From assembly GCF_001704115.1 (NCBI RefSeq), contig NZ_CP016895.1, forward strand, positions 1,922,001 to 1,986,000: DNA of 64,000 bases, given 5' to 3'. This DNA is from Acinetobacter larvae (GTDB lineage: Bacteria > Pseudomonadota > Gammaproteobacteria > Pseudomonadales > Moraxellaceae). The position numbers were made by a program, and so were the translations under genes. Positions 45,087 through 63,087 of this stretch are shown in pieces (position 1 is the first letter of the stretch; each line of letters begins with the position of its first letter). Under the pieces are notes generated by a model, which made no database searches, had not been told where the DNA came from, and saw nothing but the letters and a program-made list of their open reading frames with translations.

Positions 45087-47636
45087 ATGAAAGTACATGA
45101 TATGAGCAAACTCATGAAACAACGTCAAAACACAACAACATTAGCCATTGCGATTCGTGCGGTCTTATCGGGTCTACCGCTTGCAATGCTCTGTATCACA
45201 ACAAATGCCAGTTATGCGGCAACTGTACAAACTATTTCTATCAGCAACAGCACTTTAGATAAAGCCTTACAACAATTAGCGATTCAGACCGGTAGCACAC
45301 TGAGTTATGATGCAAACCGTTTGGCTAAATTGCAGAGCCCCCAGCTACAAGGGCAATATTCTGTTGAACAAGCGCTGCAGCTTCTCTTAGAACCGCATCA
45401 ATTACGTTGGGTACGGCTCAATAATGGCGGTTATAGCATTCAGCCCATACCAAACCATGCCAATCAAATCGTACAACTTGAAACCATCAACCTAACAGCT
45501 CAGCAAAAAAATGCAGCGCAATCCAATGCAGTAACGACTGACAGTGATGTTGCGGCACTGCCAACCATTACCTTGTCTGCCCGCTCTGCCCTCACCACCG
45601 AAGGTACTGGGCTTTATACCGCACAAGCAACCACAGCATCCAATGGTCTAGCCCTCAGCCTGAAGCAAACACCGCAATTGGTCAGTGTTTTGACACGACA
45701 ACAAATGGAAGATCAGAACATTAGTTTACTTACCGAAGTCGCCAGTCAAACGGCTGGGCTGTCTTTAAACCAAGTGGGTACTGCAGGTACTGACAGCTCC
45801 CATATCTATGCGCGTGGGAAAAAAGTAGATAACTATCTATTAGATGGTGTCAAACTCTTAAACTCTTATAGCAGCATTTTCCAAAGTCAGGACATGGCAT
45901 TATTTGACCGTGTAGAAGTCGTGCGTGGTGCAAATGGCTTAATGACAGGTGCAGGTTCAGCCAGTGCCAGTATGAACATGGTGCGTAAAAAACCTTTTGA
46001 AGATTTAAAAGCATCCGTCACGCTAAGTGCTGGTTCATGGGATAAATACCGCAGTGAAGTTGATGTATCTAGCCCACTCAATGCCGAGGGGACGGTGCGT
46101 GGGCGCATGGTACTCGCCTATCAAACAGCTAATTCCTATATCGACCGCGCTGATGAAGAACGTAAAATTGCTTATGCTGTGGTTGAAGCAGACTTGACAC
46201 CACAAACCAAAGCCAGTTTAGGTGCTAGTTTTCAGCAGATTTATTTACATGGTATCGCCAGTCGTGGGCTACCTTCGTATTATCAAGATGGTGCTTTAAT
46301 TGACTGGTCACGTTCCCGTTCTGCCGCAGCAGACTGGACCTATTCAGATCGCAGTACCACCGCCTACTTCGCCGATATCGAACATCACTTCAATGAACGC
46401 TGGAGCTTAAAAGGTGTGGTATCGCGTACTATTACCGATTCAGATGAAGTGGTTGGTTATGCCTACAACACAGATGGCGTAGAACGTGAAACCGGTAAAG
46501 GCGTAATCATGTACGCGACACGTTGGGTGTATAAACCCACACAAGATTTATTTAACCTCACCTTAAATGGCTCTTTTGATCTTTGGAATCAAAGCCATGA
46601 TATCGTTATGGGCACAACTTATAGTAAAAGTGAAAGTCAGCGCCCAAGTTATAGTGGCTGGAATAATAATTTCACTTGGGACAGCCACATTGATGATATC
46701 TTTAGCTGGGATGGTCGCCGTCCAGCTCGTCCAGAAACCATGATCAGTGGTTGGTATGGTACCAATGAACATAATTTATCGGCCTTTAGTACGGTACGCT
46801 TTAAAATTATTGACCCATTGGCCGTTATTTTAGGTGCACGTGTTGAAAACTGGGATCGTAAAATCTCAAGTTATGATCAGAAGACCGATCAACTTGACAT
46901 CAAAAAACTCAAAGAAACCGGTAAAGTGACGCCCTATTTTGGCATCACCTATGATCTCACAGATCATTGGACTGCATATGCCAGCTATACCAATATTTTT
47001 GCGCCACAAAACTATAAAAATGAAGCTGGCGACTATTTAGATCCATTGCTGGGTAACAGTACCGAACTGGGGATCAAAGGTGAGTTTTTTGATAATCAAC
47101 TCAATATTGGTGCAGCAATCTATCAGACTAAAGAAGACAACTTGGCCGTTGCGATCACGGATGTCAAAGCACCAGACGGTTCACAAGCTTATCGTGCAGA
47201 ATCTGGTAGTAAAAGTCGCGGTTTTGAAGTTGAAGCCACAGGAAAAATCAGTAATGCATGGCAAATTTCCAGCAGTTTTAGTCGTAATCTTAGCGAAGAT
47301 AATAAAGGTGACTCACTCAATAGCCAGATTCCTAAAAATACTGCCAAGTTATTTAGTACCTACCAATTGCCATACTTTGACGATGCATTAACCATTGGTG
47401 CTGGTGTACGCTGGCAAAGTCAAATCTATAATGACAATCAAGGACCATTTAAAACACGTTTTACCCAAGGCAGTTACGCGTTGGTCGACCTCATGGCGCG
47501 TTATAAAGTCTCAGACAGTTTAGTCCTTAACCTTAATGTCAATAATCTGTTCAATGAAAAATATTATCTCACAGCTGGCAATAGCTATTATGGCGCTCCG
47601 ACCAATTTTAATGTTGCATTAAAATATAACTGGTAA
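45087..47636 (+). CDS. TonB-dependent siderophore receptor with STN domain
   Basis: An 849-residue outer-membrane receptor: signal peptide ending SYAATV, an STN signalling domain (SISNSTLDKALQQLAIQTGS to about residue 130), a plug (RQQMEDQNISLLTEVASQ, VEVVRGANGLMTGAGSAS) and a 22-stranded barrel ending NVALKYNW. Motifs resemble FhuE/FpvA-type ferric-siderophore receptors. Needs TonB energy. The STN domain and preceding fecI-fecR pair indicate ligand-induced autoregulation. In-frame ATGs at 45102 and 45114 are possible starts. Ligand unknown. Confidence 0.95.
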   Translation: MKVHDMSKLMKQRQNTTTLAIAIRAVLSGLPLAMLCITTNASYAATVQTISISNSTLDKALQQLAIQTGSTLSYDANRLAKLQSPQLQGQYSVEQALQLLLEPHQLRWVRLNNGGYSIQPIPNHANQIVQLETINLTAQQKNAAQSNAVTTDSDVAALPTITLSARSALTTEGTGLYTAQATTASNGLALSLKQTPQLVSVLTRQQMEDQNISLLTEVASQTAGLSLNQVGTAGTDSSHIYARGKKVDNYLLDGVKLLNSYSSIFQSQDMALFDRVEVVRGANGLMTGAGSASASMNMVRKKPFEDLKASVTLSAGSWDKYRSEVDVSSPLNAEGTVRGRMVLAYQTANSYIDRADEERKIAYAVVEADLTPQTKASLGASFQQIYLHGIASRGLPSYYQDGALIDWSRSRSAAADWTYSDRSTTAYFADIEHHFNERWSLKGVVSRTITDSDEVVGYAYNTDGVERETGKGVIMYATRWVYKPTQDLFNLTLNGSFDLWNQSHDIVMGTTYSKSESQRPSYSGWNNNFTWDSHIDDIFSWDGRRPARPETMISGWYGTNEHNLSAFSTVRFKIIDPLAVILGARVENWDRKISSYDQKTDQLDIKKLKETGKVTPYFGITYDLTDHWTAYASYTNIFAPQNYKNEAGDYLDPLLGNSTELGIKGEFFDNQLNIGAAIYQTKEDNLAVAITDVKAPDGSQAYRAESGSKSRGFEVEATGKISNAWQISSSFSRNLSEDNKGDSLNSQIPKNTAKLFSTYQLPYFDDALTIGAGVRWQSQIYNDNQGPFKTRFTQGSYALVDLMARYKVSDSLVLNLNVNNLFNEKYYLTAGNSYYGAPTNFNVALKYNW

Positions 47637-47662
47637 AGCCTGAAGCTGTTTTAACTTCTCCA

Positions 47663-47698
47663 CCATAAAATCAGGCGAACTGTCGTTTGATTTTATGG
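47663..47698 (+). terminator. rho-independent terminator after the receptor gene
   Basis: CCATAAAATCA (47663-47673) pairs with TGATTTTATGG (47688-47698), followed by TTTATG, 27 bp after the stop. Confidence 0.75.
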
Positions 47699-47748
47699 TT
47701 TATGATTCTAAATTTAACAATCTGCAAATAACTTACTTTTAAACAGCA

Positions 47749-47790
47749 CAAGGCTTTGTTAAACTTCAATTGAAGCCTTGATATTTTTTA
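47749..47790. terminator. second terminator before the CRISPR array
   Basis: CAAGGCTT (47749) pairs with AAGCCTTG (47773) followed by ATATTTTTT. It separates the receptor transcript from the array. Confidence 0.7.
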
Positions 47791-47892
47791 AAATAAAATC
47801 AAAAGCTTACAAAATATCTTTTCATTGAAGTATTTTGACTCATTAACAAGCTAAATATTGAATAAATAGAGTGTAATTTGATTTATATTCCA
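47791..47892 (+). promoter_or_regulatory. putative CRISPR leader
   Basis: About 100 bp of AT-rich sequence immediately upstream of the first repeat in the orientation expected for type I-F arrays (repeats running GTTCA...GAAG left to right). It begins after the second terminator. Whether it carries a promoter or integration signals is not shown. Confidence 0.4.
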
Positions 47893-48100
47893 GTTCACCA
47901 TCGCACTGATGGTTTAGAAGAGTACGTCACATCGAAACCTCTCATGAGTATCGTTCACCATCGCACTGATGGTTTAGAAGAAATCAACGACCATCCCTTC
48001 ATGACCTACGTGGTTCACCATCGCACTGATGGTTTAGAAGGTATCTTGTTCATTCAATTTTGATGAGCTTGGGTTCACCATCGCACTGATGGTTTAGAAG
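47893..48100 (+). CRISPR. orphan mini-CRISPR array, type I-F-like: 4 repeats, 3 spacers
   Basis: Four identical 28-bp repeats at 47893-47920, 47953-47980, 48013-48040 and 48073-48100, each starting GTTCACCATC and ending GGTTTAGAAG, are separated by three different 32-bp spacers (47921-47952, 47981-48012, 48041-48072). The 28/32 spacing, the GTTCA start, the AGAA-type end and a short internal palindrome (ACCATC-GCACT-GATGGT) match type I-F. Unlike typical I-F repeats the last base is G in every copy and the stem sequence is different. No cas gene is in the window. An ORF reading through the repeats (HHRTDGLEE) is an artefact. Confidence 0.92.
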
Positions 48101-48171
48101 AAACGTAACATTTTTCTATAATGAGATTATATGTTTACCTTCTAGCAAAATATTGCTTAGGCTATTTATAA

Positions 48172-48282
48172 TCACTGCTGTAAATATTGAATCACAGCAT
48201 CTAAACGCGCATAAAACCCTTGATGTTTACGCCACAGCAGATGATAAGCAAAGGTCCAATCCAGCAAGGTGCATAGCCAAAT
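48172..48282 (-). pseudogene. C-terminal remnant, glutathione-S-transferase-like
   Basis: Read leftward from 48282 the frame gives IWLCTLLDWTFAYHLLWRKH... ending VIQYLQQ and a stop at 48172-48174, 36 codons. The ADIW-L-LDW type pattern resembles the C-terminus of glutathione S-transferases. An in-frame TAG immediately precedes it and no N-terminal part is found, so it is a decayed fragment. Identification is by pattern only. Confidence 0.4.
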
Positions 48283-48638
48283 CTATGGTCTATATGCAAA
48301 TCGACAAAGCAACCTGTAAATGGGTCTGTAAATGCAATTATGGATGCTGTGCAATGGTTTTGCTCATAGCCGAATGGCTTCAATGGCGTTATTCAGCCTC
48401 TTTACTAAAACTGCAACAATCTATCGTTTTTACAAAAAGTTCTATGCCTTTGAAACACTCAGCACACACAAACTTCTGCTTTGCTGTGCACGCAACATCA
48501 TTCTAAATTCTAAACTTTAACACTGCATGTAATGACCAGCTGAGAATACCTTTCTGCACAAAGTGCCATCCATGTAAATCATACAATCACAGTAAATTTA
48601 ACTTTTTGATAGATTTTAAGTATTAAAGCTTATAGGCT

Positions 48639-48657
48639 AATGAGAATGGTTTTTATT
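48639..48657. promoter_or_regulatory. weak Fur-box-like site upstream of the siderophore-interacting protein gene
   Basis: AATGAGAATGGTTTTTATT lies ~20 bp before the start at 48677. It resembles a degenerate Fur site and fits the gene's function; the match is imperfect. Confidence 0.3.
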
Positions 48658-48676
48658 TATAAGCTGGAGTCCACTA

Positions 48677-49486
48677 ATGAGCGCGAACTTTCAAAGTACT
48701 TTTATTCAAGTTAAAGAGAAAATTTACCTCAGCCCCAATTATGTTCGAATCATCTTTCATTGCGAAGATGTGCACCAGTTTAGTCAAACTACAATTGGCG
48801 ATAATAACAAACTCTTTATTCCCGATGCGACACAATCACAGATTGAATTACCTCAATTTGACTTTGAGCAACGCAAATGGAGAGTAGAGCATCCAGAATG
48901 CATGCCACATATCCGAACCTATACCCACCGTGCAATAGACTTGCTCGAAAACACCTTAACCATAGAGTTCGCCATGCATGGCACAGATACGCTAACTTGT
49001 CGATGGGTTGATCAAGCTCAAGTTGGCGATCAGATTGGCATTACCATGGGAAAACAGCCTAGAGAATTGGTCCCCGCAGCTTTATCACATTATTTAATCA
49101 TTACTGACCCAACAGGTCTTGCTGTCACACAAGCCATTTTAGAAAGTCTAGATCATCATGCTAAAGCTTATGTGATTGCAGAAACGCCCAGCGATGCAGA
49201 TCGCATCCCATTGCAAAGTAAAGCTGAGCTCAAAACAATCTGGTTAAATAATGACAATCCATTACAACATAGTTTATTAGCAGATTGCCTAACGCAACAT
49301 CCAGAGCTTATTCAATTGCCTGCTCCGCGCTTTGCACATATTACAGCCGAATTACAAGCCGTGCGCGCGTGCCGAAATATTTTACGTCAGCACAGTGACT
49401 GGAGTAAACAAGACTGCTATGCCTGTGCTTATTGGCAAATTGGTAAAAAAGACAGTGAACGTTTATCTAAACGCGTTGATGATTAA
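48677..49486 (+). CDS. siderophore-interacting protein (ferric-siderophore reductase)
   Basis: A 269-residue flavoprotein of the SIP/ViuB family: FAD-binding part with PHIRTYTHRAIDLLENTLTI (R-x-Y-T/S pattern) and GDQIGITMGKQPREL, and the NAD(P)H-like C-terminal part (HYLIITDPTGLAVTQAILE, CRNILRQHSDW... ACAYWQIGKKDSE). It reduces Fe(III)-siderophore in the cytosol to release iron. The start has a CTGGAG ribosome-binding site. Functionally it completes the iron locus, but the mini-CRISPR and a gene relic lie between it and the receptor. Confidence 0.93.
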   Translation: MSANFQSTFIQVKEKIYLSPNYVRIIFHCEDVHQFSQTTIGDNNKLFIPDATQSQIELPQFDFEQRKWRVEHPECMPHIRTYTHRAIDLLENTLTIEFAMHGTDTLTCRWVDQAQVGDQIGITMGKQPRELVPAALSHYLIITDPTGLAVTQAILESLDHHAKAYVIAETPSDADRIPLQSKAELKTIWLNNDNPLQHSLLADCLTQHPELIQLPAPRFAHITAELQAVRACRNILRQHSDWSKQDCYACAYWQIGKKDSERLSKRVDD

Positions 49487-49719: not shown

Positions 49720-50524
49720 TTAAGCTACCTGTTTTTGTTTAGGTAACTGGTCATAGTAAAACTCATTCGGTGTTAATTTGTCTAGACTCGAATGAGGTCG
49801 TTTGTGATTATAAAAATCAATGTACAGCTTTAATTGCCATCTTGCATCAGCAACATTGCTGTACGCCTTGAGATAAACCTCCTCATATTTAACACTTCGC
49901 CATAAGCGTTCAACCATGACATTATCTATCCAACGGCCTTTGCCATCCATACTGATTTTAATCTCATGTGTTGTAAGAACACTGATAAATGCATCACTGG
50001 TGAATTGACTCCCTTGATCCGTATTAAATATTTCTGGGGCACCATATTTTTGAATAGCTTCATTTAAAGCCTCAATACAAAAATCTGACTCCATGCTAAT
50101 CGATACTCGATGTGCCAACACTTTACGACTGTGCCAGTCTAAAATCGCGCATAAGTACACAAATCCTTTCGCCATTGGGATATAGGTGATGTCGGTTGCC
50201 CAGACCTGATTGCTATGCGTAATTTCAAGCCCCCTAAGTAAATAAGGGTACTTTCGATAAGCCTTATTTGGCTTACTCAAATTAGGCTTGCGATACAGCA
50301 CACGTATCCCCCATTTTTTTCATCAGTGTCCGAGTATGACGTCGGCCAATATGATGACCTTCTCCTCGCAATAGATCACGCATCATTCGGCTCCCTGCAA
50401 AGGGGTACATGAGATGTAACTCATCAATACGACGCATCAGCTTTAAATCTGAATCGCTTGTTGGTTTAGGGCGGTAGTAATAGCTACCACGAGAGACCTT
50501 CAGTAACTTGGCTTGCCTAGTCAC
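49720..50524 (-). pseudogene. IS3 transposase orfB, frameshifted
   Basis: DDE integrase-like transposase. The 5' part (MTRQAKLLKVSRGSYYYRPK to KKMGDTC) and the 3' part (YRKPNLSKPNKAYRKYPYLL to the C-terminus, with ATDITYIP and NTDQGSQFTS) are complete but in different frames because of one extra G in a run of five at 50308-50312. Copy 2 has four G and an intact 267-residue product. Copy 1 also differs at several codons, so it is not a very recent duplicate. Confidence 0.9.
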
Positions 50525-50547
50525 TGAAAGCTGCTGTGAATCGTCTA

Positions 50548-50865
50548 TTAACTTTTGTGGTTGAAGCGGCCCAGTTTCTTCAACACACTTTCTAAAAAAT
50601 CAATTTCCAAAGCTTGTTCACCAATTTTAGCATGTAGCTTTTTTAAATCGACTTGCGGCTCTGTGTCCTTTTTAGGGTTTGCAAAGGCTTGTGCTGACGC
50701 AGCGATGAGTTGATTCTTCCAGTCTATAATTTGGTTCTGATGAATATCAAAGTCAGCACTTAGCTCAGCAAGTGTTTTTTCACCTTTGATTGCAGCAAGT
50801 GCTACCTTTGCTTTAAAGTCATCTGAATGATTTCTTCTTGGTCTACGCGCCATGAAATGCTCCAT
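50548..50865 (-). CDS. IS3-family transposase orfA (copy 1)
   Basis: A 105-residue helix-turn-helix protein (ARRPRRNHSDDFKAKVALAA, LAELSADFDIHQNQIIDWKN) with a C-terminal leucine-zipper-like part (LHAKIGEQALEIDFLESVLKKL). In this family orfA and orfB are joined by a -1 frameshift. The sequence equals that of copy 2. Intact, but its orfB partner is broken. Confidence 0.9.
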   Translation of the reverse strand: MEHFMARRPRRNHSDDFKAKVALAAIKGEKTLAELSADFDIHQNQIIDWKNQLIAASAQAFANPKKDTEPQVDLKKLHAKIGEQALEIDFLESVLKKLGRFNHKS

Positions 50866-51094: not shown

Positions 51095-52461
51095 GAGTTA
51101 TAGTCATTTCTGGTGTATGAGAAAATCAGGTAGCGTATCCTAAGTACAGTTCTTGCCGGAACAAAGCACAAAGGACACGCTATGAAAAATTCTAAACTAT
51201 CCGTGGTTGAACAGCCACAACAAATTGAAACAGATCCACTTTCTGCCTTGCTCAGAAGTGGTGCTCGTGCGCTGATTGCTCAAGCTGTCGAGGCTGAGCT
51301 AGACGTTCTTTTACACCAACATCAAGACCTACTGCTAGATGATGGGCGTAAAGCTGTGGTCCGTAATGGCTATCTACCTGAACGCACGATCCAAACAGGC
51401 ATTGGCGATGTGGAAATCAAGGTTCCTAAAGTCCGAGATCGTAGTGGTTCCGGTATTCATTTCAATAGCTTATTACTGCCACCATATTTAAAGCGAACAC
51501 GGTCTGTAGAGGAGCTACTGCCTTGGCTTTACTTAAAAGGTATCTCCACAGGTGATTACCAAGAAGCATTGTCTGCCTTACTTGGAGAACATGCTCAAGG
51601 TCTGTCCTCGAATACGATTAGCCGTTTAAAAGCACGGTGGCAAGACGAACATCGGCAATGGTCACGACGAGACTTAAGCACTGAACACTATGTCTATATT
51701 TGGGCAGATGGTATCTACAGTAATATCCGACTAGATCAGGATAAGCTTTGCTTACTGGTGATTATGGGGGTGACAGCTCAAGGTAAAAAAGAACTACTCG
51801 CCATAGATGATGGTTATCGAGAGTCCACAGCGAGCTGGGTCACGGTCTTGCAAGAACTAAAGCAGCGAGGTCTAACAAAAGCACCAAAGCTTGCAATAGG
51901 TGATGGCGCTTTAGGCTTCTGGAATGCGCTGAGCCAACAGTTTCCCACAACCAAACATCAACGCTGTTGGGTGCATAAGACAGCAAATGTACTCAACGCC
52001 CTGCCTAAGTCAATGCAGTCGAAAGTAAAGGCTGACTTGCATAATATTTGGATGGCTGCAACACGGGAGCAGGCAGAAAGCCTTTGATGATACAGTGTCT
52101 TTGCACAGTGCTAAATATCCAAAAGCGATGGAAAAGCTCAGGAAAGATCGTGATGTTTTACTGATTTTTTATGATTTTCCGGCAGAGCATTGGCAGCATA
52201 TACGGACCAGCAATCCAATTGAATCGACCTTTGCGACAGTGAGGTTGAGAACGAACAAATGTCGCAATTGCGGGAGCAGAGAGACAGTATTGGTGATGGT
52301 ATTTAAGTTGATACAAAGCGCTGAGAAACGTTGGCGCAGAATACGAGGATTTGAGAAGCTACAGCTTGTAATTGATCAAGTCAGATTTATTGATGGTGTG
52401 CAAGAACAGTTAGATCGGGACGCTGCCTAATGGAGCCATACACCAGATTTGACTATATCTC
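51095..52461 (+). mobile_element. IS256-family insertion sequence with 9-bp target duplication
   Basis: A 1367-bp element with ~25-bp inverted ends (left GAGTTATAGTCATTTCTGGT, right complement GAGATATAGTCAAATCTGGT). It is flanked by a perfect direct duplication AACAAAAAC at 51086-51094 and 52462-52470, a length expected for IS256 elements. It inserted in the Rhs tip gene. Its transposase is frameshifted. Confidence 0.92.
51182..52430 (+). pseudogene. IS256-family (mutator-type) transposase, frameshifted
   Basis: Residues 1-301 contain the N-terminal domain and DDE core (YVYIWADGIYSNIRLDQDK, LAIGDGALGFWNAL, HQRCWVHKTANVLNALPKS). The frame then shifts at about 52075 (GCAGAAAGCCTTTGA, ending in a stop), and the last third (SLHSAKYPKAMEKLRKDRDV, RTSNPIESTFATVRLRTNK) continues in another frame to 52430. 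Family programmed frameshifting is not known here, so the gene is probably inactive. Confidence 0.88.
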
Positions 52462-52978
52462 AACAAAAACACCTTTCTCTCATAGATTGTCTTGGTAATG
52501 TTGTAATCGTTCTCGCACCGCCGACGCCTCTTAATTCCATCGGATCAATCCAAACATTTGGATTACTCACATAAGCCGAAGTATTTAACCCACCATTCAA
52601 TCCAATCGGGTCTTTCCCAATATATCGTGCACTATACGGTTCATAATAACGGTAGCGGTTATAATGTAATCCTGTTTCTACATCATAATATTGCCCTTGG
52701 AAATGAATATTGGTTTGTTCCAATAGATTATCACTGGCTTTAATCTCTAAGGCTTGGTCCCATGTATTAAAACAAATATCCTAAACAGACTCACCAAGTT
52801 CATTGCTTAACACCTGTGGCGTACCAATTTGATCGCAGTGATAAAATAAAGTACGTTCCAGTTCTGCACGTAGAGTCATAACGAATATTTTGACCGCAAC
52901 CGGTTCGATATAGCAGATTAATTGATGAGTTGTATTATAACCATATTCACGATGATGACCATTTTCATCGAAAGCCTT
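52462..52978 (-). pseudogene. orphan Rhs core tip with in-frame stop
   Basis: The frame reads FYHCDQIGTPQVLSNELGES, then a TAG at 52781-52783, then NTWDQALEI..., FQGQYYDVETGLHYNRYRYY and the Rhs end motif YIGKDPIGLNGGLNTSAYVS...NVWIDPMEL. These are the hyperconserved final repeats and DPxG-like boundary of Rhs proteins, after which a variable toxin begins (fragment at 50937-51094). No N-terminal Rhs barrel exists in the window. Such promoterless tips act as reservoirs of toxin ends; this one is dead. Directly upstream lies a gene that may be immunity-like. Confidence 0.85.
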
Positions 52979-53357: not shown

Positions 53358-54303
53358 GACTTCCTTCATAAATTAAAAAATACACAGCTGTTTGATTACC
53401 AACTATACAGCTAAAAATCTAATTCTTAGCGATAATATCTCAATGAGATATAAAGACGTTAAAAAGTTACCTGATGATAAGTTTCGCAGACTTACAGGCA
53501 TTAGTTGGTCCACATTTAATTTAATGATGGATGAATTAAGAGTTCAATTACCAGTCAATACTGGCAAGGGTCGCCCTCCAAAATTGCCCTTAGAAGACCG
53601 TCTTCTCTTGTGTTTAGAGTATTGGCGGGAATATAGAACGCTATTCCATGTCGGCATGAATTATGGTGTTTCAGAAACCAGTGCACTCCGAACCACCCGT
53701 AAGATTGAAGATATTCTGATTAAATCAGGGAAATTTAGTCTACCCAAACAAATGCCTGATCGAGAAGAAGCTAATTGGGATGTTGTTGTCGTTGACGCAA
53801 CAGAGATTTTCGTGCAACGTCCAAAAAAAACAGAAAAAATGGTATAGCGGCAAAAAGAAACGTCACACGATTAAATTTCAAGTTTCAATGCACTATATGA
53901 CCGGTAAAATACTGAGTGTTTGTTGCGATAAAGGTAGAGTTCATGATTTTAAGATATTTAATAAAAGTATTAAATATCTTAAATTTAAACCATTTTTTAT
54001 AGTTGACAAGGGCTATTTAGGTATAGAAAAACTTGGATTTGGTTGCTTGGTTCCTTTTAAGGCTAAAAGAGGGTGTGCTCTAGATAAGCAGCTGAAAAAA
54101 TTCAATAAAGAAATCAGCCGTAGACGAATTGGTATTGAGCATGTTTTTGGAAGAATGAAAATCTTTAAAATCTTATCCTGTGTGTACAGAAATCGGCGAA
54201 AAAGAATAAATTTAAGATTCAATTTATTAGCAGGTATATATAACCTTGAGTGGGCGGGAGATCAAAAAGATGGCTGTTTAAAAAATGATTAATGAAGGAA
54301 GTC
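53358..54303 (+). mobile_element. IS5-family insertion sequence
   Basis: A 946-bp element with 12-bp perfect inverted termini (GACTTCCTTCAT at 53358 and ATGAAGGAAGTC at 54292-54303), with further partial matches inward. TA lies on both sides (53356-53357 and 54304-54305), which may be a 2-bp target duplication or part of the ends. Encodes a two-frame DDE transposase. Confidence 0.85.
53443..54292 (+). CDS. IS5-family transposase in two frames
   Basis: Frame one (53443-53847) holds MRYKDVKKLPDDKFRRLTGI... DVVVVDATEIFVQRPKK; frame two (53780-54292) holds KKWYSGKKKRHTIKFQ, FFIVDKGYLGIEKLG and RRRIGIEHVFGRMK. The switch occurs at a run of eight A (53823-53830) followed by CAGAAAAAATGG. The change is +1, as from one extra A, so it is either a mutation or slippage at poly-A. 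Active-site residues appear conserved. Confidence 0.8.
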
Positions 54304-54649: not shown

Positions 54650-54967
54650 ATGGAGCATTTCATGGCGCGTAGACCAAGAAGAAATCATTCAGATGACTTT
54701 AAAGCAAAGGTAGCACTTGCTGCAATCAAAGGTGAAAAAACACTTGCTGAGCTAAGTGCTGACTTTGATATTCATCAGAACCAAATTATAGACTGGAAGA
54801 ATCAACTCATCGCTGCGTCAGCACAAGCCTTTGCAAACCCTAAAAAGGACACAGAGCCGCAAGTCGATTTAAAAAAGCTACATGCTAAAATTGGTGAACA
54901 AGCTTTGGAAATTGATTTTTTAGAAAGTGTGTTGAAGAAACTGGGCCGCTTCAACCACAAAAGTTAA
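54650..54967 (+). CDS. IS3-family transposase orfA (copy 2)
   Basis: A 105-residue product identical to that of copy 1, with an N-terminal helix-turn-helix and a C-terminal coiled segment. The ATG at 54650 or 54662 (MARRPRRN) could be the start. orfB lies in the -1 frame just downstream. Confidence 0.92.
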   Translation: MEHFMARRPRRNHSDDFKAKVALAAIKGEKTLAELSADFDIHQNQIIDWKNQLIAASAQAFANPKKDTEPQVDLKKLHAKIGEQALEIDFLESVLKKLGRFNHKS

Positions 54968-54990
54968 TAGACGATTCACAGCAGCTTTCA

Positions 54991-55794
54991 GTGACTAGGC
55001 AAGCCAAGTTACTGAAGGTCTCTCGTGGTAGCTATTACTACCGCCCTAAACCAACAAGCGATTCAGATTTAAAGCTGATGCGTCGTATTGATGAGTTACA
55101 TCTCATGTACCCCTTTGCAGGGAGCCGAATGATGCGTGATCTATTGCGAGGAGAAGGTCATCATATTGGCCGACGTCATACTCGGACACTGATGAAAAAA
55201 ATGGGGATACGTGTGCTGTATCGCAAGCCTAATTTGAGTAAGCCAAATAAGGCTCATCGAAAGTACCCTTATTTACTTAGGGGGCTTGAAATTACGCATA
55301 GCAATCAGGTCTGGGCAACCGACATCACCTATATCCCAATGGCGAAAGGATTTGTGTACTTATGCGCGATTTTAGACTGGCACAGTCGTAAAGTGTTGGC
55401 ACATCGAGTATCGATTAGCATGGGGTCAGATTTTTGTATTGAGGCTTTAAATGAAGTTATTCAAAAATATGGTGCCCCAGAAATATTTAATACGGATCAA
55501 GGGAGTCAATTCACCAGTGATGCATTTATCAGTGTTCTTACAACACATGAGATTAAAATCAGTATGGATGGCAAAGGTCGTTGGATAGATAATGTCATGG
55601 TTGAACGCTTATGGCGAAGTGTTAAATATGAGGAGGTTTATCTCAAAGCGTACAGCAATGTTGCTGATGCAAGATGCCAATTAAAGCTGTACATTGATTT
55701 TTATAATCACAAACGACCTCATTCGAGTCTAGACAAATTAACACCGAATGAGTTTTACTATAACCAGTTACCTAAACAAAAACAGGTAGCTTAA
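54991..55794 (+). CDS. IS3-family transposase orfB (copy 2)
   Basis: A 267-residue integrase-core transposase with a complete DDE triad: first Asp in VWATDITYIP, second in FNTDQGSQFTSDAF, and the Glu in NVMVERLWRSVKYEEVYLKA. Frame relation to orfA is -1, consistent with programmed frameshifting making the OrfAB fusion; the frame is open upstream of the GTG at 54991. This copy can supply transposase for copy 1. Confidence 0.93.
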   Translation: MTRQAKLLKVSRGSYYYRPKPTSDSDLKLMRRIDELHLMYPFAGSRMMRDLLRGEGHHIGRRHTRTLMKKMGIRVLYRKPNLSKPNKAHRKYPYLLRGLEITHSNQVWATDITYIPMAKGFVYLCAILDWHSRKVLAHRVSISMGSDFCIEALNEVIQKYGAPEIFNTDQGSQFTSDAFISVLTTHEIKISMDGKGRWIDNVMVERLWRSVKYEEVYLKAYSNVADARCQLKLYIDFYNHKRPHSSLDKLTPNEFYYNQLPKQKQVA

Positions 55795-56005: not shown

Positions 56006-56141
56006 GGTCCACAAATACTCATTTTTCTAGCTCAAGAGTTTTGAACTAGTATCTTTAACCCAGCGCACTTCCCCCCTCTTTTTCATAAGATATGGTCTTA
56101 AGATCAGGGATTAGTGCGCTTATTTTTTGTCTGGAGGAAGA
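56006..56141. other. left boundary region of the integrase island
   Basis: 136 bp with a separated inverted repeat (AGCGCACT near 56069 and AGTGCGCT near 56112) followed by TATTTTTT, just before the integrase. It could be a terminator or part of an attachment site; no second copy was found in the window. Confidence 0.35.
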
Positions 56142-57353
56142 ATGACTCACCGAAGTCTCCATGATTTTCATTCACAAACTAATAGATTGGTTGTTAATAG
56201 CCCAATTATATTTGATGTGAATAGTCTTGTAATACCTGAAGGAAAATCTAAAGTCGAATACTCAGTTCCTTATCAACAATCCTTAAAAGTGGTTGTCTCT
56301 AAAGTCAGTAAAACATTTATGTTCAGAGGTGTTTATCAAGGAAAGAAAATCAGCAAGGTCCTTGGCAAATATCCTGATCTCACGTTAGATCAGGCGATTA
56401 ATATTGTTCTAACATTTCTCGCGAAAATGAAGCAAGGCATTAATCCAATTGCAGAATTGGAGCATTTTGAAAATGTAGCGACATTAAGTGATTTCTTTTA
56501 CAAAACTTACTTGCCTCTTGCCAAGCTCAACAAAAAGTCTTGGAAAGATGATATCTCAAGATTCAAAAATCATATTGAGCCCATCTTAGGTGCTATTCAG
56601 CTGAATAAAATCACCGCTGCAATGTTAAGTGACTTAATGTTGACGGTAAAAGGAGAAAATCGATCTAATGCCACAGTGAACCGTTCTAGAGCTCTACTCA
56701 GTAGCATGTTCAATCTCGCCTTTGAGCGTGAACTGATTGATATTAGCCCAATGAGTCGAGTAAAAAAATTTGTAGAGCAAAATCATATTGAGCGCTATTT
56801 ATCTGAAGATGAACTCAAGCGCTTAATGAAGGTTCTTGCAAATCATGCCTACTATGGAATTGATAATCAAATCATTGTCGGCATTGTAGAAATGCTACTG
56901 CTAACAGGAGCACGTAAAGGTGAAGTGCTTAACTTAAAATGGAGTGATCTTGATGAGGTTAATCACCTTTGGAAACTCAATGAGAATAAGTCTGGTAAAC
57001 CACGCATTATTCAGTTGAATAGCCAAGCACAGCAAACCATACGAAAGATGTCACGCAAATATCCGTATGTCTTTGCAAATCCAGCAACCGCTTTGCCATA
57101 TAACGATATACGTAAAACTTTTCAAAATATTCTGCAAGCAGCACAAATTGAAAATTTTCGTATCCATGACCTTAGACATAACTTTGCCAGCATGGCTGTT
57201 AACAATGGTTGCGATATCTATGTTGTTCAGCATTTGCTAGGACATACTTCGCCGACAACCACACAACGTTATGCCCACCTACGTCAGGACACTCTACGTA
57301 ATGCTTCAGAGATGTTAGCTGAACGTATCAACGAAGCTCGCCCTAATACCTAA
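56142..57353 (+). CDS. tyrosine site-specific integrase
   Basis: A ~403-residue phage-type integrase. Arm-binding N-terminus, SAM-like core-binding domain (TLSDFFYKTYLPLAKLNKKS), and a catalytic domain with the full set: Arg258 (LTGARKGEVLNLKW), His342-x-x-Arg345 (IHDLRHNFAS), His368 (LLGHTSPTTT) and nucleophile Tyr377 (QRYAHL). The ATG at 56142 is chosen for its GGAGGAAG ribosome-binding site rather than the TTG at 56127. It begins an AT-rich module and is 60 bp ahead of the helicase gene, so the two may be expressed together. Confidence 0.93.
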   Translation: MTHRSLHDFHSQTNRLVVNSPIIFDVNSLVIPEGKSKVEYSVPYQQSLKVVVSKVSKTFMFRGVYQGKKISKVLGKYPDLTLDQAINIVLTFLAKMKQGINPIAELEHFENVATLSDFFYKTYLPLAKLNKKSWKDDISRFKNHIEPILGAIQLNKITAAMLSDLMLTVKGENRSNATVNRSRALLSSMFNLAFERELIDISPMSRVKKFVEQNHIERYLSEDELKRLMKVLANHAYYGIDNQIIVGIVEMLLLTGARKGEVLNLKWSDLDEVNHLWKLNENKSGKPRIIQLNSQAQQTIRKMSRKYPYVFANPATALPYNDIRKTFQNILQAAQIENFRIHDLRHNFASMAVNNGCDIYVVQHLLGHTSPTTTQRYAHLRQDTLRNASEMLAERINEARPNT

Positions 57354-57412: not shown

Positions 57413-59276
57413 ATGCTTAAAAAATCATATGTATTGGAACAAGATCAATATTTGGCTGATTTGAACTTAAAAACTCCAGCTTCTCAATTTACGTTCTTGG
57501 TCGCGCCAACTGGAGTTGGCAAGACAACTTATACAATGGAAGAACTCAGACATCAATTTGAATTGGTAGTCATTTTAGTTCCTACTCAAAACAAAGTCTC
57601 TGAGCTGAAAAACCATTATGGTACTGTCACTTCAAAATATTTATTTTTTTATGGTAACCATAGCCCCGATGAGAGTGTTCGTAACTTCAAAGGTGTCATT
57701 GTTGCGACTTATGATAAGTTTGACAAAATTATGGGGCTTATGACGCCATCACAAAAATCAAAGGCGTTGTTAGTCGTTGATGAAGCACATAAACTTTATT
57801 CAGCAGGGTCATTTCGAGATGATGCACTCACACCTGTGCTTTGGCATTTGAAAAATAGAACTATACCCTCAGCACTATGTCTCACTGCAACTAAAACTGA
57901 TGAACTCTTTAATCAATTAAAGATTAAAATTGATCATGAATATGTTGTTGAACATAGTGACCCCATAGTACGAAATATTGAAGTCATTTCTTTACTCAAA
58001 GGTGACCAATATACCAGTATTGCTGTCATTGAAAAAAGGATTAAGCAGCTTAAGAAAGAGTATGAAAAACTGCCTAAAAATCACCCTCGTAAGACTATAC
58101 TTGTACGTGTCAACTCACGAGAGAAATGCCATAATTTTAGATGCTATTTTGAAAAAAAATATAAGCTTAAATGCTTAGTGGTACATAGTAAGTCTAAAAA
58201 TGACTCTGAAGTTCGAGAAATTTTTGAGTCACAAAAAATTCCTCAAGGTATTGATATCGTCTTTACCACTTCTATTATGGATGAGGCGGTCAATCTAAAT
58301 AATGAGCAAGTTGAAATAGATTCAGTATTTGTGATAGGTAAACAGGCGCATGTTGAAGAGTTAGTCCAATTCATTGGAAGACTTCGTTTGGCAAATGTCC
58401 CTTGCTGTATTTTATTGCATACTGAGATTTTACAGACAAACCAAGATATTGAAACAGTTCACCAAAAACACCTAAAAATGATGGATGAATTTATCACTAG
58501 GGTATACCAAATTGGTGAAGGACTTTCTCGTTTGGTTCATGATTATAAATTTTATCAAAATGAAGAAAAGATTCAAAACATCTATGACATAATCAATCGT
58601 ATGAACGAGAGTTTCAAAGATTGGTTTGATTGCAAACTATTTACAGTCTATAACTGTAAGTCAATTCAAAATATTGCCAGTTTAGTATCTACACTCTACC
58701 AAATGGATACAGGACATATTTACAGTAGCTTTGAATATCTTGCATGGCGCATCAAGAAATTTCTACCTAATAGTGAAATTACTTTCATCGAAAATGATGA
58801 GCTTGAAACACCCCAACATGTCAAAGACTTCTTTGATGAACAAAAAAACCTGTCTGATCAAGCCTACGCAAATAGCATAGATTTGGGAATCAGCATGTTT
58901 CTTGATGAGTTTCAGTCTTCTACCTTTAAGCCCAAGACCTTAAAGGAAATTTCAGATAAGTTCATTCAGACCAAACAAAAAAACGAAGACTATATAGATG
59001 ATCTGGTGTTATTCGCTGGTGATGATATTCCGCACCATGAGCAAACTGCTAGGGTATTAAATGAAACGATCTATTTGGCACAACATATCTCTAACCTGCA
59101 TGACATCAAAGAGATTTTGATTCAGAAAAGATTTAGTGAGATTTCCAAGGTAGCTGAAGCATATGCAAAAAATGAATTTGTAAGGCATATGTTACGAAAG
59201 TTCTATGGCCGAACCCCTGAGAAGTATTTATGCGATGGGCATAAAATTACTGGTTCACAGGCAAGTACATTACTTA
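57413..59276 (+). pseudogene. SF2 (DEAD/DEAH-like) helicase, 5' part, interrupted by an IS982-family element
   Basis: The first 621 codons hold a phage-type SF2 helicase: Walker A APTGVGKT (31-38), DEAH box VVDEAH (121-126), motif III LTAT (157-160) and motif VI QFIGRLR (319-325), followed by ~300 residues of helical C-terminal sequence. An IS982-family element interrupts codon 622; the frame otherwise runs into the IS to a stop at 59350. Without the IS and one TACTTA duplication the frame continues into 60260-60600, giving 734 residues. The truncated product keeps all helicase motifs and might still be active. Lies 60 bp after the integrase. Confidence 0.85.
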
Positions 59277-60253
59277 ACCTGAGTTCGATGAAAAACGTTC
59301 AACCTTTCAGCATATTTTTGAAAGTTGGCTTATTCGGATTTAAACAATAAGCCACTACAGCAGCCATAATATTTACCATGAAATTATTCACAGAACGATG
59401 ACGCGAATGGTCAAGTTGATGTAAGTTTTTTAACTGATCATTCACCGTTTCTATTAATCCTCTTCTGCCAAGCAATTGTTTTTCTTCTTCAGTTCGGAGT
59501 GGCTTGTTTTTCATATTCTTACGTGATGGAGTCAATATTTTTAATCCTCTTGCTGCTAAAGCCTCTGTCTTAGCTTTGCTTAAATAGCCTTTATCTCCTA
59601 ATAAAATGCCTTTTAATTCTTTGGTTAAAGACTCTAGTACAGCAATATCATGGATATTCCCTGATGTTACTTTAATATTAATAATTCACCTAAGTTATTG
59701 ATAACCATGTGTAATTTAAAACCATAGAACCACCCAGTACTACTTTTTCCACGATTCGCTAAGCCTTTAAATACGCGGTTTCTTTTAATTCTAAGATTAT
59801 GACAAACTACAAGTTTGGTTGAATCAATAATACTAATTCCTGTATCAGTTCCTTTAACCTGATGAAAAAAGCTACTCAAAGCTTGTAAACAACGTGGCAT
59901 GATTTCAATAAAACGATTATAGCTCAGCAGCTTAGGAAATGCTGATTTCCAAAAAGGGATGACCATGTGGCAGTAAAAATATTTAAAGAATCTAAAACCT
60001 GATTGGTGAAATAAGATAACAATTGTCATGATCTCAGATAAACTTAAAGCTGACTTTTGAACTGGCTTATTTTGCTCAGGAATAAGAGCTTTCTCTAGAG
60101 ATTCGTTAAATATTTTGCAAAAATCATCCACTTTACAGAATAATTCGGTAATATGATCCATAGAAAAGCCTTGTGTTTTAACTTTTGTCTTAAGAACCAA
60201 TAAGTTATAAACATTAAGGCTTTTTTTCTACTTTTTTTATGTCGAACTCAGGT
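59277..60253 (-). mobile_element. IS982-family insertion sequence with 6-bp target duplication
   Basis: A 977-bp element with inverted termini ACCTGAGTTCGATGAAAAA (from 59277) and, complement, ACCTGAGTTCGACATAAAAA (ending 60253). TACTTA is duplicated at 59271-59276 and 60254-60259. It is inserted in the helicase gene in antisense orientation. Its transposase is frameshifted. Confidence 0.9.
59299..60161 (-). pseudogene. IS982-family transposase, frameshifted
   Basis: N-terminal part MDHITELFCKVDDFCKIFNE, middle TDTGISIIDSTKLVVCHNLR and TGWFYGFKLHMVINNLGELL, then a stop in TTAAAGTAACATCAGG at ~59676 where deletion of one A shifts the frame; the rest (GLIETVNDQLKNLHQLDHSR to FKNMLKG) is in another frame down to 59299. 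The family and DDE residues are recognisable but the enzyme is probably dead. Confidence 0.85.
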
Positions 60254-61031: not shown

Positions 61032-62429
61032 ATGAGACATATAGAAATGGCTTTTCGAGTTAATGATTTTCTATTCAAAAATCAAAATATAATATTAGCA
61101 AAAGACCACCAATTTAATTCAGAACATACTTTTTCATTAATTACTGGTATGAATGCTATAGGAAAAAGTAGATTACTCACAAGTATTATACAGTCATACT
61201 TAATTTATAGTAAAAAATATGAAATGTATGACGTTGATAGTATTTTGATTGATCACCCGATTCAAATGCCAAATAAGATTATTGCAATAACAAATGCTTT
61301 AAGCGATAAGTTCCCAGAAAAGAATAGTAAATCCCGCATATATGAATATTTTGGTAATAAATCCAATGGCAGTATTATCTATGATAGATACGCCTCTATC
61401 AAACAGCTAATGATGAGAGATGATCTTAATTATGATTGTATTTGTCATACTTTTTACTATCTAGGTTTTTTACCTTTCTTAAAGATAACTCTTTCACACA
61501 CATTGAAAAAAAATACTCTATCACCACTTGAGTTAATAGAAATTCACGAAAGATATTATTCACTTTTTGATAATGTCAATTTCACTTTAAACACAGAAAG
61601 CCCTTCTGAAAATGAGCAACTCTTTTTTTATACATTAAGAAAAATTTATTTTAGAAAAAAGAGTATAAAGCAAAGTGAATTCAATCTTATCTATAATATT
61701 TTTTTCGGAAATAATCATGTAAAATTTAAAAAATTTGATATTAATCATTATTATTCTTACAGATCTCGCACATCTGCTTTTTCACATGAAGAGATAAAAA
61801 TACTTTTAGAGAATAATATCTTAAGAATTACAGACGTAAATTTGCTAATGTACTCAGAAGAAATTCCAAGCCCTTTAAATATAAATAAACTAACTGATGA
61901 TTTCATTAGCTTCAGCAATCTGAGTTCAGGACAGCAAGCCTTATTAAATATTTTTATAAGCTTATCAAGCTGTATTGAGGATAATAGTTTAATATGTATA
62001 GATGAACCTGAAATAAGTTTACACCCAGAATGGCAAATGGATTTCATAATACAACTTCAAGAGTTATTTTTAGACTATAAAGGTTGTCACTTCATAATTG
62101 CAACACATTCACCTCAAATTGTTTCGGGTCTTAGTTCAGAATCAGGATATATTATTGACTTGGAAAAAAATATTACATTTTCAAAAGAAGAATATTCAAA
62201 AAAATCTGCTGATTTTCAGTTGGCAAAGATATTTAATTCACCAGGATATAATAATGAATATTTAATTAGAGTAGCGTTAACCATCTTATCTAAAATTTCA
62301 AAAAAAATAGAGCTCAACGAATTAGATACAGAGAATCTTAATCTTTTAAATAGTATATTATGTGATTTACCTACAGATGATCCTGTATCATTTCTTATTG
62401 AGCAAATAAATGCATTGGTGAAACTATAA
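61032..62429 (+). CDS. AAA/ABC-type ATPase, Septu PtuA-like
   Basis: A 465-residue ATPase with Walker A GMNAIGKS (39-46), ABC-type signature LSSGQQ (297-302), Walker B/D-loop ICIDEPEISL (321-330) and switch THSPQI (358-363). This is the AAA_21/OLD-like ATPase fold used in several phage-defence systems. The HNH nuclease gene begins 2 bp after its stop, the layout of Septu (PtuA ATPase with PtuB HNH). An ATG at 61047 is an alternative start. AT-rich, unlike the core genome. Retron-Septu hybrids need a reverse transcriptase, which is absent. Confidence 0.85.
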   Translation: MRHIEMAFRVNDFLFKNQNIILAKDHQFNSEHTFSLITGMNAIGKSRLLTSIIQSYLIYSKKYEMYDVDSILIDHPIQMPNKIIAITNALSDKFPEKNSKSRIYEYFGNKSNGSIIYDRYASIKQLMMRDDLNYDCICHTFYYLGFLPFLKITLSHTLKKNTLSPLELIEIHERYYSLFDNVNFTLNTESPSENEQLFFYTLRKIYFRKKSIKQSEFNLIYNIFFGNNHVKFKKFDINHYYSYRSRTSAFSHEEIKILLENNILRITDVNLLMYSEEIPSPLNINKLTDDFISFSNLSSGQQALLNIFISLSSCIEDNSLICIDEPEISLHPEWQMDFIIQLQELFLDYKGCHFIIATHSPQIVSGLSSESGYIIDLEKNITFSKEEYSKKSADFQLAKIFNSPGYNNEYLIRVALTILSKISKKIELNELDTENLNLLNSILCDLPTDDPVSFLIEQINALVKL

Positions 62430-62430
62430 T

Positions 62431-63087
62431 ATGAAATATTACAATTATACCAATGAGGAGCAATCAATTATTGATACTTATGATATGGTTGATCATAATT
62501 TTTGGTCAATTAAGGTAAAAGAGCTTGCTCCATTACGTTTAAATTTAAGAAATCATTATTTAGCCCAACAAAAAAATCGATGCTGTTATTGTAAAATGCT
62601 TAAGCAAGAAAAGCATGGTTGTACTTGGGATGTTGAGCACATTGTACCAAAAGCATTATTTCCATCATTTTTATTTGAAAAACAAAATCTCAGTCTTTCA
62701 TGTAAGGAATGTAATGATGAAAAATCAGATAAATCTGTTTTTTCCAATCACTCATACAAATATAAGAAATATCCTAAGGAATCAGATAAATATTCTATTA
62801 TTCATCCTCATTTTGATAAGTATAGTGAGCATATGCGTATTCTTCAGAGCCCAAGTGGTAAAATCATGCATATTCCTATTACGAATAAAGGTAAAACCGT
62901 TTTTAATCACTGTAATTTACTTCGTTTCACTATGCAGTTTTATGATGCAGAAGAGATAAATGAAGAATTACTTATTTCCTTTTCAGATTATATTGATTCT
63001 CACTCAAGTCTATCTCATGAAAGTGCTAAAGCATTTTTCGTGGCAGCACTACCCCGAAATTTACCGCCAAAATATTTGGATTGCTAA
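62431..63087 (+). CDS. HNH endonuclease, Septu PtuB-like
   Basis: A 218-residue HNH nuclease: zinc Cys in RCCYCK (51-54) and SCKECND (91-96), and the catalytic core WDVEHIVPKA (His70). The C-terminal ~110 residues are not recognised. The start is 2 bp after the ATPase stop, so the pair is co-translated. In Septu the ATPase binds the HNH protein and restrains it until infection, when it cleaves nucleic acid; that mode is known from the family, not seen here. Confidence 0.85.
   Translation: MKYYNYTNEEQSIIDTYDMVDHNFWSIKVKELAPLRLNLRNHYLAQQKNRCCYCKMLKQEKHGCTWDVEHIVPKALFPSFLFEKQNLSLSCKECNDEKSDKSVFSNHSYKYKKYPKESDKYSIIHPHFDKYSEHMRILQSPSGKIMHIPITNKGKTVFNHCNLLRFTMQFYDAEEINEELLISFSDYIDSHSSLSHESAKAFFVAALPRNLPPKYLDC

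Follow-up and report, generated by a model that had tools for sequence, protein, structure and literature searches.

A genuine type I-F CRISPR unit, made up of a leader, repeats and spacers, is confirmed in the Acinetobacter larvae chromosome, between a TonB-dependent receptor gene and a siderophore-interacting reductase gene. As judged by sequence comparison, it belongs to the branch of type I-F known in Acinetobacter as I-Fa. In our view this is quite probably an anti-phage I-Fa array that was once functional, that has been left behind by the cas genes of its chromosome and that now most likely lies dormant. Its interest is that of a CRISPR memory that no longer sits with its cas genes and in which one spacer nevertheless has a definable phage-integrase target. 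All positions given below without further specification refer to the window, i.e. the whole stretch of 64,000 nucleotides that was analysed.

Anatomy of the array

A repeat search placed four identical 28-nt repeats on the forward strand, at 47893..47920, 47953..47980, 48013..48040 and 48073..48100, with a spacing of 60/60/60 nt between their starts; the fourth is the last intact copy. They are separated by three spacers of 32 nt each, on the same strand: spacer 1, which is proximal to the leader (47921..47952), spacer 2 (47981..48012) and spacer 3 (48041..48072). The repeat is palindromic and predicted to form a small hairpin, and the unit thus shows the combination of 28-nt palindromic repeats and 32-nt spacers that is characteristic of type I-F arrays. 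The array is therefore real and type I-F-like, as first described. When up to three mismatches were allowed, the repeat occurred at only these four places in the chromosome (3,741,098 bases, one contig), and the reversed repeat, used as a control pattern, gave no match. Similarly, a DNA query covering 47500-48700 matched the chromosome at the place of the array only. Rfam returned no match in the window.

An AT-rich leader of the branch, homologous to the leaders that follow cas1 in relatives, is found directly upstream of the first repeat, as expected for an I-Fa array (approximately 47791..47892, forward strand). Compared with shuffled sequences, the similarity exceeded z = 4 for 17 of the 23 leaders compared, two further rows having been skipped for masked bases, and the best alignment had 79 identical bases out of 94. 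The six leaders below this threshold include those of plasmid pM3-1-68 and of a cas-free array of the genus (L053). The leader block was also recovered in a genus-wide DNA search. Receptor gene and leader are separated by a terminator-like hairpin (47662..47699, forward strand), which fits with the array being a separate unit; this hairpin is the only one found, and shuffled sequences contain 0.7 on average.

The end of the array is less clear-cut than the preliminary description had it. That description stressed the absence of a decayed terminal repeat. The four copies are indeed identical, but a probable decayed fifth repeat follows on the same strand at 48133..48160, in the exact 60-nt register. 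It matches 8 of the 10 initial bases of the repeat, and at least 8 matches are found at 78 of the 127,944 window positions, among which are the four intact repeats. Over its full length it matches at 14 of 28 positions, with at least 14 matches at 603 of the 127,944 window positions. Among the 24 rows compared in relatives, 13 end in an intact repeat and 11 in a changed one; masked bases or the end of the stretch cut off four of the intact-end rows, and in two of the 13 a further decayed copy comes after. Because these ends are so mixed, an intact last repeat says little about recent activity, and together with the decayed fifth repeat this leaves the suggested recent activity with a sign that is weak either way. 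The identity of the four repeats gives no sign of long decay, which counts against regarding the array as a relic. Further into the gap that follows the array, a 20-nt imperfect inverted repeat (75%), with arms 119 nt apart, spans 48193-48351 and is perhaps a decayed gene or a small mobile element; the stretch at about 48182-48220 matches another genome of the genus (G008) at 88% in the genus DNA search.

Kinship of the repeat within the genus

The repeat was found within three mismatches in five of 175 genus genomes including that of A. larvae, i.e. in four of the 174 others. One of these (G017) has a single copy, and the remaining ones (G029, G075 and G157) have many. The repeats of G075 and G157, both of which have cas loci, differ from that of the window at 2 of 28 positions, and the G075 repeat has the same hairpin loop. 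Twenty loci of the genus, picked by leader, repeat or Csy4 matches, were fetched for comparison. The array repeats of 11 of them combine a CCATC/GATGG stem with a final G, and eight of these 11 adjoin csy2-csy3-csy4-cas1. Another eight of the 20 have a TCATC/GATGA stem and a final A; L064 has a single copy only. The stem and final G, initially considered unusual for type I-F, are thus ordinary among these loci; a type I-F repeat may look odd and yet be normal for its branch, which calls for caution. The preliminary description would have been weakened had no relative possessed a compatible I-F Cas6; the relatives with near-identical repeats do have Csy4.

Csy4 is present in 71 of the 175 genus genomes, and 18 of these form a low-scoring subgroup (62-95 bits). 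Loci from 15 of the 18 genomes were fetched, and in every one of them csy2-csy3-csy4-cas1 is followed by the leader and the array. The name I-Fa is used here on the basis of the gene order given in PMC7192602, where cas1 comes last in the operon of the A. baylyi I-Fa system, unlike in the I-Fb system of A. baumannii. The I-Fb repeat printed in PMC4338279 differs from that of the window. A search for the exact repeat in GTDB genome_contigs gave no matches, records of the own genome possibly being excluded, and a literature search by the repeat sequence, and by a related repeat of the branch, gave none either.

Spacer 2 points to a family of phage integrase genes

With up to three mismatches allowed, the three spacers matched nothing but the array itself in the 175 genus genomes, its own included. 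Similarly, IMG/VR contained no match to any of the three spacers when bases 1-26 were used as the query, with bases 6, 12 and 18 left open. A phage search with spacer 2 gave 15 records, the best two of which represent a single lineage, Acinetobacter phage Ab105-2phi and a derivative. The match lies in the tyrosine-integrase gene of Ab105-2phi, with 26 of 32 bases identical, a 5' flanking CC and an E value of 0.9. In the integrase frame, the spacer reads NQRPSLHDLR, which we take to be the HxLR region of tyrosine recombinases.

A search with a degenerate pattern derived from this peptide retrieved 19 IMG/VR contigs, with 24-28 of 32 bases identical to the spacer and three contigs at 28. As the pattern pre-selects the peptide, the identity of these contigs is not independent evidence of significance; what the matches show is that a target family exists. 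The ten residues are identical in eight of the 19 contigs, all mismatches inside those codons thus being silent, and three of these eight are at 28/32. Reading frames were tested for ten of the 19 contigs, and all ten match Phage_integrase. The matches are preceded by a 5' CC in 15 of 19 cases, the four without it including one of the three at 28/32; CC is common to related integrase genes through descent. Small pieces of one contig (L087; 1-3% of the query) match six phage records, all from Acinetobacter phages, and another contig (L083) matches no phage record. CC has been reported as the PAM of the sister subtype I-Fb (PMC4338279). Taken as sequence matches, these data support the view that spacer 2 is directed against a phage integrase gene family with the I-F PAM CC.

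For spacer 2, an origin in mobile DNA with a 5' CC is supported; the phage and IMG/VR searches yielded no persuasive target for either spacer 1 or spacer 3. For spacer 1, reverse translation of one of its four open frames gave no IMG/VR match. For spacer 3, two phage matches were inspected, at 22/32 and 20/32, both without CC, and were judged to be due to chance.

Cas genes in the chromosome, in relatives and on plasmids

The array was first described as an orphan, with no cas gene in 64 kb, and this holds: when nine cas proteins, taken from the systems of two plasmids, were compared with the window by tblastn, none matched at E 1e-4. Chromosome-wide profile searches for Csy4 (PF09618), Cas1 (PF01867) and Csy3 (PF09615) gave no match either, and the same three profiles recognise Csy4, Cas1 and Csy3 of plasmid pANC7974.1, which served as a positive control. 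The profile searches covered these three proteins in the chromosome. A related Cas1 protein used as a query also had no match in the chromosome, a result that has no positive control and shows nothing alone. With Csy4, Csy3 and Cas1 absent, the chromosome does not hold a complete I-F system (csy1-4, cas1 and cas2/3). The proposal that the array uses cas genes located elsewhere thus fails for the chromosome in so far as these three are concerned, and a supply from a plasmid is less likely than dormancy.

Arrays without a cas match in the same stretch occur in four of the 20 fetched loci (L053, L055, L057 and L063), and the corresponding genomes have Csy4 elsewhere. L063 starts where its contig does and could belong to the array in L062, which leaves three clear cas-free arrays. 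On the plasmid side, Acinetobacter plasmid pANC7974.1 carries csy2, csy3, csy4 and cas1f of the branch and an array whose repeat is five mismatches away from that of the window. Plasmid pM3-1-68 has a similar repeat, also with five mismatches; its cas proteins are distant (about 26-31% identity to the branch for Csy3) and its leader is unrelated, and it therefore lends weak support to a plasmid-borne source of cas genes.

I-Fa loci of relatives contain paired degenerate repeats flanked by cas3 and csy2, at about 4531-4615 in L056, at 11726-11810 in L061 and at about 16291-16384 in L052. They are positioned like creA of the Acinetobacter CreTA module (PMC10097628).

A stranded array, probably dormant

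The array probably once worked as a trans-acting satellite array or as the end of a full locus. Transcription would have started from its own leader, and the cognate Cas6f/Csy4 would have cut the transcript in the repeat hairpin. Bound to Csy1-3, the resulting crRNAs would have directed Cas2/3 against phage DNA bearing a 5' CC PAM, spacer 2 representing the memory of a prophage integrase gene. As the cas genes are gone from the chromosome, dormancy is the most likely present state of the array. The array could be a relic, or it might be reusable should cas genes arrive. Past function, cas loss and present dormancy are what we infer from the array, its relatives and its chromosome.

The closest known counterpart is the I-Fa system of A. 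baylyi ADP1, with which the window array shares a 28-nt repeat, 32-nt spacers and a leader homologous to those found after cas1. Unlike that system, it has only three spacers and its chromosome is devoid of Csy4, Csy3 and Cas1. ADP1 has three arrays, two of which (21 and 6 spacers) are located away from the operon (PMC7192602). Orphan I-F arrays have also been reported in the A. calcoaceticus-baumannii complex, and six of ten adjoin transposases (IS3, IS5, IS6), ammonium transporters or glutamate genes (PMC11035748). Like them, the window array is small and without cas genes, and it has transposase genes 1.6-6 kb downstream; its repeat differs from the commonest repeat printed for them in that source. 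Stranded or satellite I-F arrays are thus a kind already described for Acinetobacter, and the window array adds one more.

Alternative explanations

An array that still works in trans would share its identity and its anti-phage role with the dormant array that we favour, and the two readings overlap to that extent. It would be served by I-F cas genes that reside either on a plasmid absent from the one-contig assembly or in further strains of the species. The branch cas genes and related-repeat array of pANC7974.1, the two arrays that ADP1 maintains off its operon and the undecayed state of the four repeats all speak for such a satellite. We nevertheless regard it as unlikely, if clearly the strongest of the competing explanations, and the plasmid records contained no match to the intergenic region (47637-48676) at E 1e-5. 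It is also conceivable, at a considerably lower probability, that the array is under selection in a cas-free chromosome because I-F Cas proteins brought in by plasmids or other mobile elements take up its transcripts. If so, the host would provide the guides and the visiting element the machinery.

We find it very improbable that the array serves, as had been proposed, as a regulatory solo guide, for example one that acts on the adjoining iron-uptake genes. The idea draws on the position of the array, which has a FecI/FecR-type receptor locus on one side and a siderophore reductase gene on the other, and on the existence of CRISPR-like regulatory RNAs in Acinetobacter I-F systems such as CreA (PMC10097628). 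However, the spacers have no chromosomal match within three mismatches outside the array, their matches elsewhere in the window do not exceed 20/32, and the window contains only three matches that combine CC with the seed (at 697, 27415 and 34882), which reach 11-15/32 overall. Furthermore, the chromosome has no Csy4 or Csy3 to carry such a guide. CreA of I-F CreTA is likewise a short repeat-spacer unit linked to type I-F; according to PMC10097628, its two repeats are degenerate, and it is located between cas3 and csy1 with a partial target nearby. In contrast, the four window repeats are intact, and neither a partial CC-flanked target nor linked cas genes were found close to them.

Least credible of all is that the array guides an I-F3 CRISPR-associated transposon or is a phage-borne mini-array, both of which had been suggested. 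The chromosome does have a Tn7-like element, which encodes a TniQ-domain protein, the single TniQ match in the chromosome. This protein is the TnsD of a Tn7 that lies beside a glmS-like gene within 3693000-3712000 of the chromosome, 1.73 Mb away from the array, with matches to TnsA, TnsC, TnsD and TnsE, a Mu-type transposase in the place of TnsB and type I restriction genes as cargo. The best repeat-like sequence at this element matches 17/28, and Csy3 and Csy4 are absent from the chromosome, so that TniQ, Cas8/5-7-6f and an array are not united in one Tn7-like element. As for a phage origin, the exact repeat gave no match in the viral contigs of IMG/VR, and the matches of the array to phage records are at chance level.

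Genomic surroundings

The array is preceded by genes for an ECF sigma factor, FecR and a TonB-dependent receptor with an STN domain (45087..47636, forward strand), which together form a FecI/FecR-type receptor locus. It is followed by the gene for the siderophore-interacting reductase (48677..49486, forward strand) and then by the transposase genes. Receptor and reductase genes are neighbours and not parts of the array. The reductase had been presented as the receptor's own partner, a pairing that is not conserved in the loci examined: none of the 13 receptor-side loci from the genus DNA search has a reductase homologue within about 1.5 kb after the receptor. Close reductases (67% identity) are found in two named genomes, those of A. 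guillouiae and A. calcoaceticus JUb89. The A. guillouiae reductase locus has no match to the window receptor, and in JUb89 the only receptor match is a distant one (23.5% identity), located about 1.2 kb past the reductase.

Beyond the reductase gene, two very similar elements, presumably IS3-like, lie in opposite orientation at 49720-50865 and 54650-55794. They enclose a Mutator-type transposase gene (51182-52430), another DDE transposase gene (53392-54292) and, at 52460-52723, an apparent Rhs C-terminal fragment recognised by eye. Further on, genes for a phage-type integrase (56127-57353) and a DEAD-box helicase (57413-59350) precede a Septu-type defence pair, PtuA/PtuB according to PADLOC models, at 61032-63087, about 13 kb downstream of the array.
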